Shown here: positions 36,574-43,049 of the stretch, in pieces
Layout of the letters: each line of letters starts with the position of its first letter
Numbering within the stretch: the stretch's first letter is position 1
Assembly: GCA_013151025.1 (NCBI GenBank)
Contig: JAADJC010000025.1
Span: forward strand, 34,681 to 79,846
Length of the DNA stretch: 45,166 nt
Reading direction: 5' to 3'
Origin: Acidobacteriota bacterium
Lineage (GTDB): Bacteria > Acidobacteriota > Holophagae > Thermotomaculales > Thermotomaculaceae
Translations under genes and position numbers: made by a program
Notes under the pieces: model-generated
Told to the model about the DNA's origin: nothing
Database searches by the model: none
What the model saw: the letters and a program-made list of their open reading frames with translations, nothing else

Positions 36574-36816
36574 TCAGTTGTTTTTCTTCCTGCATGATTC
36601 TCTGAACGCCTGGAGGACAGATTCGCAGACATCTTGTGGCGGAAGTTTCTTATCCAGACCGTGGGCAATTTCAAGGCTCTCCCTGAACGTCTCCACAAAC
36701 TCCCGGCAATGGGGACAAACCTCAAGGTGCTCCTGAATCCGTTGACACTGGCCCCGGGCCAACTCTCCGTCTACGTAATCGGAAAGAATATCCAGAATTT
36801 CCTCACATTTCATCAC
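36574..36816 (-). CDS. Cytoplasmic zinc-finger anti-sigma factor
   Basis: An 80-residue ZAS-type protein: CEEILDILSDYVDGELARG, then HLEVCPHCREF with the HxxxCxxC motif. There is no membrane helix, so unlike the anti-sigma factor at 218-682 it is soluble and probably responds to a cytoplasmic or redox signal. Its ATG overlaps the stop of the ECF sigma gene by 4 bases. It should inhibit that sigma factor. Confidence 0.9.
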   Translation of the reverse strand: MMKCEEILDILSDYVDGELARGQCQRIQEHLEVCPHCREFVETFRESLEIAHGLDKKLPPQDVCESVLQAFRESCRKKNN

Positions 36817-37373
36817 CGACCCCTTTTGAAATAATCCGCCACCTGGTTCCGCAGCAATAATCTTGCCCGATGGACTCTTACCTTTGCATTGGAAAGGGAC
36901 GTTTCCAGAATTTCTGCAATTTCCTTATGGGGCAATCGCTCCACTTCCCTGAGAAGAAAAGGAATTCGATAGTGTACCGGAAGATTCAAAATCGCATTTT
37001 CAATCACCCTTGCCGCTTCCTTCTGCTCCAGTTTGTCCTGGGGATGGTAGCGGTTGTCACTTCCTGCATCATGAGAAGTTTCCAGCAGTTCATCCAGGCT
37101 GCTTTCCTGCCCGCTTTCCTTGCGACGCTTCTGAAGACAGGCATTGGACGCAACCCGGTAGAGCCACGTGGTCAGCTTGGCGTTTCCTTTAAAATTTCGG
37201 ATGTATTTAAAGGTATTGATCAGAGTTTCCTGGAGAATATCGCTGGCGTCCTCCGGATTTCCACAGAAGCGAATGCCGAAATTGTAAATGGTATCCCGAT
37301 ACTGGTCAAAAAACTGGGTAAAGGCTTCTTCATCGCCGGATTTCATTCGTTCGATCAGCTGCTGCTCCGACAT
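36813..37373 (-). CDS. ECF sigma factor (RpoE-like), coupled to the BMC operon
   Basis: The start is set at 37373 (MSEQQLIERMKSGDEEAF), giving 186 residues; an ORF start at 37463 would run through the end of the preceding gene. Region 2 (FDQYRDTIYNFGIRFCGN; DASDILQETLINTFKYI; LTTWLYRVASNACL) and region 4 (LPVHYRIPFLLREVERLP; HKEIAEILETSLSNAKVRVH) are complete. Only one base separates the upstream DUF711 stop from this ATG (TGA-A-ATG), and no good Shine-Dalgarno is present, so translation is coupled to the BMC-associated gene. It probably controls this operon or a stress regulon; its promoter motif is not evident here. Confidence 0.92.
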   Translation of the reverse strand: MSEQQLIERMKSGDEEAFTQFFDQYRDTIYNFGIRFCGNPEDASDILQETLINTFKYIRNFKGNAKLTTWLYRVASNACLQKRRKESGQESSLDELLETSHDAGSDNRYHPQDKLEQKEAARVIENAILNLPVHYRIPFLLREVERLPHKEIAEILETSLSNAKVRVHRARLLLRNQVADYFKRGR

Positions 37374-37374
37374 T

Positions 37375-38745
37375 TCAATTCCGCATACTGGTAATCGGGG
37401 CCGGAATTCGTCCACCCCGCTGGATGAAGCGGTCACAAGAATATTTGTTGATATCCTGAACAATGGCCATCCCCAGAAGCCCGCCGAAATTCACCACATC
37501 CCCGACTTTACTTCCCGGCGGTACAATTACACGGACAGCGGTGGTTTTTCCATTGACCACGCCGATGGAAATTTCATCGGCAATGAGACCGGAAATTGTC
37601 GATGCCGGCGTATTCCCCGGAACCGCCACCATATCCAGACCCACCGAGCAGACCGCAGTCATGGCTTCCAGTTTCTCCAGGGTCAGCGCGCCGATTTTCA
37701 CCGCCTCAATCATAGCAGCATCCTCTGAAACCGGAATAAACGCGCCGGACATGCCGCCCACGTAGGACGACGCCATCACGCCGCCCTTTTTCACCGCATC
37801 GGTCAACAACGACAGTGCTGCTGTGGTTCCCGGCGCACCGGGCTGTCCCAGGCCCATGTTCATCAGGATTTCACCGATGGAATCCCCCGCTACCGGTGTG
37901 GGCGCCAGGGACAAGTCCAGAATCCCGAATTGTACGCCCAGACGTCGAGCCGTTTCCCTGCCAATGAGCTCACCGGCACGGGTAATTTTGAAAACCGTCT
38001 TCTTGATGATTTCAGAAAGGGAACCCAGATCCACCGGACCGGCATCTTTAACCGCGTGGTTGACCACTCCCGGCCCACTGACCCCGACATTGATAACACA
38101 TTCCGGTTCCGATACCCCATGGAATGCCCCTGCCATGAAGGGATTGTCTTCCACCGCGTTGGCAAAAACCACAAACTTGGCATTCGCCAGTGCGCCCCGG
38201 TCTTTCGTAATCTCCGCCATCTCTTTGATGACTGTCCCCATTTCCCGAACCGCGTCCATGTTAATACCGGCACGGGTAGATGCCACGTTGACGGAAGAAC
38301 ATATATGGTCTGTCTCCGCTAATGCCTGGGGAATGGATCGGATAAATTCTTTCTCTACCCGGTTGGCCCCTTTCTGCACCAGAGCTGAATATCCACCGAG
38401 AAAATCTGCACCGATTTCATCACAGGCCTTATCCAGGGCTTTTGCAATTTCCACAAAGCCGTCCCGGTCTATTGAAACACCACCGATCAGGGACACCGGT
38501 GTAACAGAAACCCGCTTGTTGGCTGCCCGGATACCGAATTCCTCTTCAATGCCATTGACCACCTTTACCAGATTTCCGGCATACTTCATTACCTTGTCAT
38601 AGATACGGGTTTTCGTTTCTTCCACGGAAGAAGAAATGCAATCAAACAAGGAAATCCCCATAGTGGTAGTGCGGATATCCAGATGTTCCTTTTGAATCAT
38701 TTTGATCGTTTCGAGAATCTCTCTTGTACTAAAGCTACCAAGCAT
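37375..38745 (-). CDS. UPF0210 (DUF711) family protein
   Basis: A 456-residue member of UPF0210, often called 'PFL family' although it is not a pyruvate formate-lyase. Typical segments are [92 protein letters not shown] and [14 protein letters not shown]. The biochemical function is not established. In many bacteria its gene lies beside a UPF0237 ACT-domain gene, as here (33-base gap). A GGGAG Shine-Dalgarno lies about 11 bases before the ATG. What is unusual is its place in an operon with a BMC shell gene and an ECF sigma factor. Confidence 0.9.
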
Positions 38746-38778: not shown

Positions 38779-39222
38779 TTACACCTTGTGCATGAACTGG
38801 AACAGTTCTTCGTGCTGAGAAAAGATGCCGACGCCCAGCTCTTCACCTTTTTTCGTCAGCATTTCCTTCAATTCTGAAAAACTGCAATTTGACCCCACCA
38901 GATTAACAATCACAATCATGGCAAAATTCTCACCCAGTAAGGTCTGGGTAATATCGGTAATGTCTATGTTTTTTTCTGCAAGAATACCTGTAATTCCGGC
39001 TACAATCCCAGGCTGACTCTTCCCGAAAGCAGTGATAATAGCAGCCTGGCTCTCTGCCGGGTCCGCATTTAAAACCTGGGCTCCGGCACCATCCTCACCC
39101 ATCGGAACGGTGGTAATCAGGTCCCGAACCATCTGCTTTACAATTTCCGGATTTGCAGAATCACCGAGGTGCTTGAAAATAATCTCGGTAATTTTATACA
39201 CGATATCTCGTCTGTCCATCAA
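38779..39222 (-). CDS. UPF0237 ACT-domain protein with extra N-terminal BMC-type helix
   Basis: A 147-residue protein. Residues about 58-147 are a normal UPF0237 ACT domain (AAIITAFGKSQPGIVAGITG; ILAEKNIDITDITQTLL; SQHEELFQFMHKV), which by itself is the usual full length of about 90. Residues 1-40 are an addition: an amphipathic helix (RRDIVYKITEIIFKHLGD) and a second short helix (EIVKQMVRDLI), then a flexible linker. This resembles encapsulation peptides of BMC cargo proteins. ACT domains bind small ligands such as amino acids and regulate partners. The ATG overlaps the aldehyde dehydrogenase stop by 4 bases. Confidence 0.85.
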   Translation of the reverse strand: MMDRRDIVYKITEIIFKHLGDSANPEIVKQMVRDLITTVPMGEDGAGAQVLNADPAESQAAIITAFGKSQPGIVAGITGILAEKNIDITDITQTLLGENFAMIVIVNLVGSNCSFSELKEMLTKKGEELGVGIFSQHEELFQFMHKV

Positions 39223-40790
39223 TCCACCTTCCTGAAAACATCATGCTCCCGTGCGGTATCCTTCGCCAATGGCGTAACCATGGTCCGGGAGGAAATAAGT
39301 ATTTTCCGGCCTTCTCTCACAGCATCCACTACATCCCGTTCCGACACAAAATCCACTACATCATGAGGCGTTTCCGCCACCACGCGGCCCTGAAGCTTCC
39401 GGTCAATAATGTCAACCAGACCGGAGGAAGCACCCACCTGCAGCGGAGATTCAGTACCGATATTTACCGGATTGGTCTCAAAGGCCACCCTTTTCACATT
39501 GATCATGTGCTTTGCCGTGATATTTTCGGATGTAATATTATTGCCGAAAGTCCCGCAACCTAGTGTCATGGAGGGCATCAACCGGGTCGTGTACCCAACA
39601 GCTCCGTGGGTCGTAGGGGTATTAACCAGAATCCGGAAAGCGGGTTTTTTCAACGCGAATTCACGGATTACATCGAGATTCCTGGAATGAATCCCAAGGG
39701 AATGGCCCAGCCCACCGAAATTCAACAACTGGATGCAACGCTCACAGGCAGCCTGCCAGCCATCTGCCACATAGAAGCATAGAATCGGAGACAACTTTTC
39801 AATGGAAAGCGGATGATTTTTTCCCACCCCATCCATTGGCACAAGCAACACCCGTGTTTCTTCCGGCACGGAAAAACCTGCAATCCCGGCAATCACCGCC
39901 GGGTCTTTCCCTACAATCTTCGGATTGGCCGTAAACTTGGGGGTCACAACCACCTGTTCCAGCTTCTTCTTTTCTTCATCGTTGACTACGTAACAACCAT
40001 TTCGCTTAAAGGCGTCCAGCATGCGGTCCGCAATGGGCTGATCCACAATCACCGACTGCTCGGACGCACAGACAGTGCCGTTATCGAAAGATTTTCCTGC
40101 AACAACGTCTTTTGCCGCTTTCTCCACTTCGGCGGAACGCTCCACAAAAACAGGTACGTTTCCCGGCCCGACGCCATATGCCGGTTTTCCGGACGAATAG
40201 GCCGCTTTCACAAGGCCCAGCCCACCGGTAGCCAGAATTACCCCGGTTTTCGGATGACGCATCATCTCGTTGGTCAGCTCAATGGTGGGGCTTTCCAGGA
40301 CCTGTACTGTGTCTGACGGCGCTCCGGCCTGCTTCAGCGCGTTCTGTATAACCCTCACGGTTTCCCCGATGCACTCCTTTGCGGATGGATGGGGAGAAAA
40401 CAGAATTGGGTTCCTTCCTTTCAACGCTATAATCGCTTTATACAATGTTGTGGAAGTGGGGTTTGTAGATGGAATAACAGCCGCCACAATGCCGACAGGC
40501 GCAGCGACTTCCCATATGTTCCGATTCGAGTCTTCCCGAATAATTCCAACAGTCTTTTCATCCTTAATGGAGTCCCAGAGAATCGTAGTGGACAGCTCAT
40601 TCTTAATCATCTTGTCCGCCACTCTGCCGAAACCGGTTTCAGAAACCGCCAGCTCAGCCAACCGCCGATTTTCCCTCACACCGGCATCCACAATTGAGTG
40701 AACCATCTGATCCACCTGCTCCTGGGAATATCCCTCTATGATTTTTCCCGCTGCTTCAAGACGGGCAAAAACCGCATCCAACTGGCTCAT
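39219..40790 (-). CDS. CoA-acylating aldehyde dehydrogenase, BMC type (EutE/PduP-like)
   Basis: A 523-residue protein of the CoA-acylating branch: VAAPVGIVAAVIPSTNPTST, GPGNVPVFVE, the catalytic Cys241 in FDNGTVCASEQS, FGGLGHSLGIHS and a VNTPTTHGAVG region. It oxidises an aldehyde to acyl-CoA with NAD and CoA. Residues about 450-523 are an extension beyond the catalytic fold, with an amphipathic helix (DVVDFVSERDVVDAVREG) and an ILISSRTMVTPLAKDTARE end, resembling targeting tails of microcompartment enzymes. It is 9 bases downstream of the BMC shell gene, so it is probably cargo. The alcohol- or aldehyde-producing enzyme is not in the window. Confidence 0.92.
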   Translation of the reverse strand: MSQLDAVFARLEAAGKIIEGYSQEQVDQMVHSIVDAGVRENRRLAELAVSETGFGRVADKMIKNELSTTILWDSIKDEKTVGIIREDSNRNIWEVAAPVGIVAAVIPSTNPTSTTLYKAIIALKGRNPILFSPHPSAKECIGETVRVIQNALKQAGAPSDTVQVLESPTIELTNEMMRHPKTGVILATGGLGLVKAAYSSGKPAYGVGPGNVPVFVERSAEVEKAAKDVVAGKSFDNGTVCASEQSVIVDQPIADRMLDAFKRNGCYVVNDEEKKKLEQVVVTPKFTANPKIVGKDPAVIAGIAGFSVPEETRVLLVPMDGVGKNHPLSIEKLSPILCFYVADGWQAACERCIQLLNFGGLGHSLGIHSRNLDVIREFALKKPAFRILVNTPTTHGAVGYTTRLMPSMTLGCGTFGNNITSENITAKHMINVKRVAFETNPVNIGTESPLQVGASSGLVDIIDRKLQGRVVAETPHDVVDFVSERDVVDAVREGRKILISSRTMVTPLAKDTAREHDVFRKVD

Positions 40791-40799
40791 TGTTCAGTT

Positions 40800-41093
40800 C
40801 TACGCCTTTCTCGGTGCTTTGTACCCCGGCAGAATAGTCTCTACATCGCCATGGGGGCGCGGAATCACGTGGACCGAAATCAACTCACCAACCCGGCGTG
40901 CTGCGGCAGCACCTGCGTCAGTAGCCGCCTTCACAGCGCCAACGTCTCCCCGTACCATCACGGTAACATAGCCGCCACCGATATATTCCTTTCCAATAAG
41001 CTCAACATTGGCCGCTTTGACCATTGCATCTGCCGCTTCAACTGACCCGATAAGGCCCTTGGTTTCAATCATGCCCAGCGCTTCTCTATTCAT
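40800..41093 (-). CDS. Bacterial microcompartment shell hexamer (BMC-H)
   Basis: The start is set at 41093 (GGAGG 5 bases upstream), giving 97 residues. It is a canonical single BMC domain: [60 protein letters not shown] and [14 protein letters not shown]. Such proteins form hexamers that tile the facets of microcompartments. Only one shell gene is present and there is no pentamer (BMC-P) or trimer gene in the window, so further shell genes must lie elsewhere if a compartment is made. It is the first gene of the eight-gene minus-strand operon. Confidence 0.95.
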
Positions 41094-41241
41094 CATTCCC
41101 TCCATCATGAAATCCTGTTTTATCTTACCACACAACCCGGAAATGCGTCCAATTTCCTGATTCGCTCCGGAAACCTCTGCTTCTATTTATCGTACAATCA
41201 AATGAATCTCATAAAAAGGATATAACAAAGGGAGGTCACAA

Positions 41242-41484
41242 ATGGAAAACAATGCTCAAAACCGGCCAATGACAGTGGGAGACTGGTTTGTAACCATTCT
41301 CATTCTGGCAATACCACTTTTAAACATCGTCATGTACCTGTACTGGGCGCTCAGTAGTACCGGCAACCTCAACCGGAAAAACTTCTGCATCGCGTCACTA
41401 ATCTGGATGCTCATCGGAATCGCCATTGCTGTTCTGGTCATTGGCTTCGTCTCCCTCATTGGCGTCGCCGCCATGAGTCACTGA
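41242..41484 (+). CDS. Small two-helix membrane protein
   Basis: An 80-residue protein of unknown function with a strong GGGAGG Shine-Dalgarno. Two membrane helices: about residues 14-37 (WFVTILILAIPLLNIVMYLY) and 49-77 (IASLIWMLIGIAIAVLVIGF). The short loop between them contains GNLNRKNF. Similar small proteins with an IPLxNIxMYxYWA start occur in many bacteria without known role. It is divergent from the BMC operon, starting 148 bases from the shell gene's ATG. Confidence 0.8.
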   Translation: MENNAQNRPMTVGDWFVTILILAIPLLNIVMYLYWALSSTGNLNRKNFCIASLIWMLIGIAIAVLVIGFVSLIGVAAMSH

Positions 41485-41641: not shown

Positions 41642-41669
41642 TTGTGTTGAAAAAGAAAAAGTGTATGAT
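41642..41669 (+). promoter_or_regulatory. Possible promoter of the malic enzyme gene
   Basis: TTGTGT, a 16-base A/G-rich spacer, then TATGAT, ending 42 bases before the ATG at 41712. Both hexamers are imperfect. Confidence 0.4.
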
Positions 41670-41711
41670 ACCTGCCGAGATGGCCTGACGGCTGACTCCG
41701 GAGGAAAGAAT

Positions 41712-43049
41712 ATGCGCAATAATATCATTAAAAGAACCCGATTGAAATTTGACGATGTGGCCGGTTTTCTCGGGCGTTTTGCCACTATGATCGGAGAATA
41801 CGGTGCCCTCTTCGGTGAAATTTCCACCGTTCATGTGGGAAAACGGACGAAAATCAGGGATATTGACCTGTACGTATCGGATGAAGAAACCTTCGACAGA
41901 ATCTGCGATGAAATCCGGAAAATGGACGGCGTGGACCTGATCGAAGTGAAAGATGCGGTCAATGAAGCCCATGTGGACGGAAAAATCGAAATCCGCCCAC
42001 GGGTGAAAGTCGAATCCATTGACGATCTCAGTATTGTATACACCCCCGGTGTCGCATCCGTCTGCAAAAAAATTGAGGCGGATCCCGAACTGAAATACAA
42101 GTACACCGGCATCCAGAACAGCGTGGCAATTGTTACCAACGGAACCGCCATCCTCGGACTGGGGGACATCGGCGCCGTGGCCGGCATGCCGGTCATGGAA
42201 GGAAAGTCCCTGCTTTTTAAAATTTTATCCGGGGTCAACGGATATCCCATTCTTATTGAAAACAAAGACCCGGAAGTGGTGATTCAGGCGATCAAAGCCA
42301 TTGCGCCCACTTACGGCGCCATTAAACTGGAAGATATCAAGGCGCCGGAATGTTTTGAAATTGAAGACAGGCTGGATGCGGAACTGGATATTCCGGTGGT
42401 TCACGACGACCAGCACGGCACCGCCGTCGTGGTATTGTCGGCACTTCTGAACATTGCCCAGTACACCTATCTGAACCTGAAACGGGCCACCGTCGGCATT
42501 GTCGGGCTGGGTGCCGCGGGAATCGGCATCTCAAAACTGCTCAGAGCATACGGGATCAAACAGATATACGGCACCGACATCAACAAAGAAGCAACAGAAC
42601 GATTTGAGGCGCTGGGAGGTATTCCCACCGATCTGGAAGGGGTGATGAAAGAAGCCAGAATCGTCATTGCCACCACCGGTGTGCCGGGACTGATTAAACC
42701 GGAAATGATCCAACCCAAACAGGTGATTCTGGCGCTGTCCAACCCCAATCCGGAAATTACGGCGGAAGACGCGCTGAGTGCCGGTGCCGCCTATGCGGCG
42801 GACGGACGTTCCGTCAACAATGCCATTGCTTTTCCCGGGCTGTTCAAAGGGGCGTTGATGGCACGGGCCACCCACGTCAATAATGCCATGAAAATTGCCG
42901 CCGCCACCACCATCGCCAGCTTCACTATGGTCGGTGATCTGGTCCCCAACATCCTTGATACAAAGCTCCACCGGGCTGTTGCCAAAGCAGTGGAAGAATC
43001 CGCCCTTAAAACAGGTGTTGTCAAATACGTAAAATCTGTAGCAGATTGA
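41712..43049 (+). CDS. NAD-dependent malic enzyme with N-terminal ACT-like domain
   Basis: The start is set at 41712 (GGAGG 7 bases upstream), giving 445 residues. An ACT-like domain occupies about 1-80 (RLKFDDVAGFLGRFATMIGE). The malic enzyme core follows: SIVYTPGVASVC, VTNGTAILGLGDIGAVAGMP, the metal-binding VHDDQHGTAVV, and the NAD-binding GIVGLGAAGIGISKLL. It decarboxylates malate to pyruvate; Asp in YGTDINKE after the Rossmann strand suggests NAD. The ACT domain points to allosteric control by a small ligand. It is monocistronic, with a strong terminator. Confidence 0.93.
   Translation: MRNNIIKRTRLKFDDVAGFLGRFATMIGEYGALFGEISTVHVGKRTKIRDIDLYVSDEETFDRICDEIRKMDGVDLIEVKDAVNEAHVDGKIEIRPRVKVESIDDLSIVYTPGVASVCKKIEADPELKYKYTGIQNSVAIVTNGTAILGLGDIGAVAGMPVMEGKSLLFKILSGVNGYPILIENKDPEVVIQAIKAIAPTYGAIKLEDIKAPECFEIEDRLDAELDIPVVHDDQHGTAVVVLSALLNIAQYTYLNLKRATVGIVGLGAAGIGISKLLRAYGIKQIYGTDINKEATERFEALGGIPTDLEGVMKEARIVIATTGVPGLIKPEMIQPKQVILALSNPNPEITAEDALSAGAAYAADGRSVNNAIAFPGLFKGALMARATHVNNAMKIAAATTIASFTMVGDLVPNILDTKLHRAVAKAVEESALKTGVVKYVKSVAD

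Follow-up and report, generated by a model that had tools for sequence, protein, structure and literature searches.

A microcompartment operon with an extended ACT-domain gene

Proteins of the UPF0237 family are typically bare ACT domains of about 90 residues. The member encoded in the window (here, the whole 45,166-nucleotide stretch of acidobacterial DNA that was analysed) is 146 residues long and lies in an operon with a bacterial microcompartment (BMC) shell gene, which raises the question of what its additional N-terminal residues are and whether they could direct the protein to a shell. The operon, on the minus strand throughout, has the order BMC-H, AldDh, ACT and UPF0210 (DUF711): an EutM-like BMC-H shell protein (40800..41105, with the real start probably MNREALGM at 41093); an acylating aldehyde dehydrogenase (AldDh) of 523 residues, EutE/SauS-like (39219..40790); the ACT protein (38779..39219); and a UPF0210 partner of the PFL/RNR-like ten-stranded barrel family without a tag, a relative of 2ha9 (37375..38745). 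Directly downstream of BMC-H and AldDh, the ACT gene is near a BMC locus, as is expected of cargo bearing an encapsulation peptide (EP). The UPF0210 protein is a full-length homologue of SP0239 (2ha9) and differs from it in being situated in a BMC operon; three cysteines and many glycines are invariant in the bare and extended groups alike.

Directly after UPF0210 are genes for an ECF-type sigma factor and a zf-HC2 anti-sigma-like protein (36574–37463, minus strand), the sigma gene occupying the same position in all genomes of family f1 that were read with enough flank; the operon may thus be controlled by a dedicated factor. Upstream of BMC-H is a small 80-residue membrane-type reading frame without a Pfam match (41242–41484, plus strand), conserved in locus L012 (344–586). 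A malic enzyme gene divergent from the BMC operon (41661–43049, plus strand) has a weak N-terminal ACT_4 match at residues 27–92.

The NCBIfam model NF001220 (PRK00194; length 90) matches residues 59–146 of the ACT protein over all 90 of its positions (E = 2.5e-26; 91.9 bits; cut-off 74), which places the protein in the UPF0237/PRK00194 ACT family, where the bare length is typical and is not required by the model. By profile match and structure comparison, the ACT domain (residues 58–146; 38782..39048, minus strand) has the fold of 1zpv, with residues 59–136 of the AlphaFold2 model matching that structure. Residues 1–57 are extra relative to the family domain. These results agree with an earlier, sequence-only reading, which had described a family that is normally bare (bare homologues measured 86–95 residues), about 55 additional N-terminal residues (the domain begins at residue 59 of 146) and hydrophobic residues at I6, V7, I10, I13, I14 and L18 (all in the sequence as given). 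Compared with SP0238-type UPF0237 proteins (PRK00194; 1zpv), the window protein thus shares the ACT fold and sequence and the pairing with a UPF0210 gene, and differs by an N-terminal extension of 55–60 residues comprising two helices and a linker. A misplaced start codon or faulty gene model, with a bare ACT domain as the true protein, would account for the usual 90-residue family length and nothing else; the ATG at 39219 has a good Shine-Dalgarno sequence (AGGAAGGTGG) just 5' of it and overlaps the AldDh stop codon by one base, the start and helices are conserved in eight families, and the pN/pS of the extension is 0.12. We therefore rejected such an artefact, which has next to no chance of being correct.

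Two conserved helices and a free linker

AlphaFold2 predicts, from a 5-sequence alignment and with low confidence (pLDDT about 50 in the helices), a helix at residues 3–21 (39157..39213), a second helix at residues 24–36 (39112..39150) and coil at residues 37–57 (39049..39111), all on the minus strand; likewise, in an alignment of 4 Acidobacteria MAGs and 26 further genomes, the ACT domain follows a two-helix module and a linker whose length varies. Helix 1 is near-invariant in family f1 and keeps its register in eight families, with positions 6, 7, 8, 10, 13, 14, 15 and 18 hydrophobic in about 90–100% of 28 sequences from those families. Across the window gene and loci L011–L013, the helices have a pN/pS of 0.12 and are under strong purifying selection, the linker, at 0.65, is nearly unconstrained, and the value in the ACT domain is 0.065. 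A conserved helix, a free linker and a conserved domain make up the layout described for encapsulation peptides (PMC8217296; PMC12339742), and the low-confidence terminal helices and coil, taken with the pN/pS contrast, give the ACT protein the helix and poorly conserved linker of EP cargo.

The second helix and linker proposed in the sequence-only reading agree with this prediction; amphipathicity, which that reading placed in the first helix, formally applies to the second. Helix 2 is amphipathic, with a hydrophobic moment exceeding that of its shuffles (P = 0.013–0.016 in the window and 0.001–0.003 in the family), whereas the moment of helix 1 is not above that of its own shuffles (P = 0.47, Eisenberg; P = 0.12, Fauchere-Pliska) in a test of low power, its hydrophobic surface being broad and taking in all eight positions named above. 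The EP-like helices of neighbouring cargo fail the same test, which is thus weak on control helices; as proof of amphipathicity the helical moment was set aside, having failed for helix 1 and being uninformative since the controls fail too.

Like the EPs of PduP/PduD type, the extension has an N-terminal helix with hydrophobic residues at 6, 10, 13, 14 and 18, followed by a poorly conserved, disordered linker, on a gene in a BMC operon. Unlike them, it has two helices rather than one, further hydrophobic residues at 7, 8 and 15 and a polar residue at 9, and it lacks the E7/R11 pair of PduP; no known encapsulation peptide was found to be homologous to it in sequence. The departure from the usual single helix counts against reading the extension as a tag. 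Searches with pieces of the extension gave no meaningful match in Pfam and only weak matches in the PDB, where the hits were coiled coils and designed helical proteins; a known domain was accordingly rejected, and the want of a matching family or solved structure likewise counts against a tag. In 29 genomes the two-helix module was found on no other protein or cargo above chance.

The same anatomy would also suit a cytosolic interaction or oligomerisation domain for AldDh or UPF0210, linked to the BMC through metabolism and with no role in shell targeting: a hairpin that packs on a partner would combine, as these do, a helix with more than half of its surface hydrophobic (helix 1) and an amphipathic one (helix 2). 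The unconstrained linker between this module and the ACT domain argues the other way. Such a pathway-specific cytosolic hairpin is the main rival to a targeting tag, and on all the evidence, including the gene neighbourhoods below, we judge it unlikely.

The extension occurs in genomes with shell genes

A screen of 396 genomes across the phylum with NF001220 yielded 29 above the cut-off; on reading the genes, 27 of the 29 UPF0237 proteins were extended and two (in genomes G308 and G332) were bare. PF00936 was present in 26/26 extended genomes tested, plus the window's own, and in 0/2 bare ones, against a phylum background of BMC shell genes of 173/396 (44%); the naive hypergeometric P values for extension and PF00936 (6e-11 by genome and 1e-5 by genus) ignore kinship. 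A second sample, covering two more classes and the window's own, added 43 further UPF0237 genomes, all 43 with long open frames and a BMC, and the 19 that were read (20 loci) all have the module. The extension is thereby sequence-verified in 46 Acidobacteriota genomes of eight families, every one with shell genes, and shell genes are also present in all of 24 further genomes with long unread frames; the only two acidobacterial genomes with bare UPF0237 have none. This restriction to BMC-bearing genomes (46/46 verified versus 0/2 bare) is phylogenetically confounded. The sequence-only reading had named, as the outcome that would refute it, an extension just as common where BMC genes are missing; the verified genomes do not show this.

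Most BMC-positive genomes are without the UPF0237–UPF0210 pair, and where the pair occurs its position varies. In 15/27 genomes about 5 kb or less separates the ACT gene from a shell gene; most of these ACT genes share an operon with AldDh, and this direct linkage spans families f1, f22, f69, f70 and f77. The order BMC-H, AldDh, ACT, UPF0210 is identical in all f1 genomes read; f22 and f69 have BMC-H, AldDh, BMC-P and ACT (with UPF0210 nearby in f22), and f77 has a similar arrangement without BMC-P. The remaining 12/27 ACT genes are unlinked to shell genes, with UPF0210 still adjoining in most. Distance from shell genes and conserved pairing with UPF0210 are both features that a cytosolic interaction domain would share; set against that explanation, UPF0210 in Firmicutes pairs with bare UPF0237, the module being absent, and among verified genomes the extension was never seen without shell genes.

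A different possibility is that acidobacterial UPF0237 acquired the extension as a lineage-specific decoration unrelated to BMCs, with which it would coincide through shared inheritance. A single origin (see below) fits this, as does the universal presence of BMCs in the class of families f5 and f31; co-occurrence there is uninformative because all 13 genomes carry a BMC, and their ACT–UPF0210 pair is away from shell genes. The proximity of 15/27 ACT genes to shell genes speaks against mere decoration, as do the limited spread of BMCs in the phylum (44% of the genomes sampled), the strong purifying selection on the helices and the pattern within family f32, where three genomes have both the pair and a BMC and seven (g79) have neither. 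This explanation is already disfavoured, and we regard it as improbable. The weight of the BMC association rests on the locus linkage, the f32 contrast and the selection pattern.

A single origin within the Acidobacteriota

In the trees of both the ACT protein (support 87/91) and its UPF0210 partner (100/100), a single branch separates the extended group from the rest, and both trees are most simply read as recording one gain of the extension. Because of this single origin, the genome counts are not independent and represent persistence rather than repeated gain. Elsewhere the family is short (91 residues for 1zpv; 89–95 for coding sequences on large replicons of Listeria innocua, Peptoclostridium and Collinsella), and in Listeria and Peptoclostridium the bare UPF0237 gene stands beside a PFL-family (UPF0210) gene. 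Listeria has pdu/eut BMCs, and the bareness of its UPF0237 despite them indicates that possession of a BMC does not in general bring the extension; the association is a particular property of these acidobacterial systems. In both trees the bare pair of G308 and G332 (L045 and L046; genus g12 of family f2) clusters with the Firmicutes proteins, which points to lateral transfer; for the same reason, loss of the extension within this genus was rejected.

An ACI-like compartment

The source genome is an acidobacterial MAG (2.6 Mb, 92% complete) with a second BMC locus, on contig C128, encoding a class II aldolase with an EP-like terminal helix, BMC-H, BMC-P, a PduS/RnfC-like protein and a tandem BMC-T. 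An apparently truncated lipid A acyltransferase-like frame is also present there, between the BMC-H and BMC-P genes (L008, 7441–8160). No PduL was found in the genome at its 92% completeness. The C-terminal end of the aldolase (L008, 8644–9378) is FSRNELVNLIQEILNEVGG, and the aldolases of the extended-ACT genomes end in an EP-like helix; AldDh is on another contig, in the window. Published ACI BMCs of Acidobacteria, mainly from subdivisions 4 and 6, combine a BMC-P triplet and a hydroxyacid dehydrogenase with a class II aldolase that bears a C-terminal EP, and their AldDh is always on a satellite locus (PMC8217296). The present genome is like them in its aldolase and its separate AldDh locus, and unlike them in that contig C128 has one BMC-P in place of a triplet, a BMC-T and a PduS/RnfC-like protein, and no hydroxyacid dehydrogenase. 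With its single BMC-P, we call the compartment an ACI-like metabolosome and stop short of ACI identity. The main text of the published BMC catalogue makes no mention of an ACT or DUF711 protein (PMC8217296).

AldDh may carry a targeting element of its own. A C-terminal domain of about 45 residues (DFVSExDVRxA...KIxxxxKTIITPxAxDxxE..xIF), without a Pfam match, is common to the AldDhs (window 39219–39425, minus strand; L047–L061, L074, L077, L083 and L088). In those of families f1, f22, f69 and f77 and in one of f32, an internal EP-like helix flanked by disordered linkers comes before this domain (SREEISAIVDRFLANR is one example, and the f1 form is STIESIIETKLGEI). In the window, alignment of AldDh tails across families places this possible helix at about residues 456–468 (SGLVDIIDRKLQG; 39387..39425, minus strand), between the catalytic part and the C-terminal domain. 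The f31 AldDhs seem to be without it. An AlphaFold model of AldDh from 5 sequences (pLDDT 39) was set aside.

A candidate tag for the UPF0237–UPF0210 pair

Taken together, the extension is best explained as a BMC-targeting tag, a two-helix module with a flexible linker acquired once by an acidobacterial UPF0237–UPF0210 pair, a reading to which we assign a probability of roughly 55%. The resemblance to BMC cargo proposed in the sequence-only reading is partly supported, by the 46/46 co-occurrence, the operon context, the helix and linker pattern and ACI-like loci in other families; it is weakened by a first helix that is not formally amphipathic and by the single origin, which makes the co-occurrence one association kept over time. 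Through the tag, the ACT protein would be held at the luminal face of the shell, or at the cargo condensate, in an ACI-like metabolosome with a class II aldolase and an acylating AldDh, and it would act as an adaptor or regulatory subunit taking UPF0210 to the compartment. In the PDU dehydratase, tagged subunits carry untagged ones; by analogy, the extended ACT protein probably also tethers UPF0210, because the two genes are encoded together and UPF0210 has no tag. Gene pairing suggests that the two proteins bind each other, and the ACT fold suggests ligand sensing; encapsulation, a binding partner for the tag and the piggy-backing of UPF0210 would follow from the targeting reading. The fuller proposal, in which the pair entered an acidobacterial BMC by way of a novel, two-helix type of tag carried by its ACT subunit, is tentative, and we hold it at rather less than even odds.

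Encapsulation-type tagging is already known; what is new here is its candidate occurrence on a protein family that searchable papers do not report as BMC-associated. Among those papers, none was found that links ACT domains or PF13740 with microcompartments or encapsulation peptides, and no functional assignment was found for UPF0237 or UPF0210. If the fuller proposal is correct, BMCs would have their first resident ligand-sensing ACT protein and their first resident DUF711 protein, and a sensor or regulator-type protein would join the known classes of metabolosome cargo. ACI-like BMCs would gain a candidate component, and the uncharacterised, very widespread UPF0237–UPF0210 pair would be tied to aldehyde metabolism within a shell, its first testable context.
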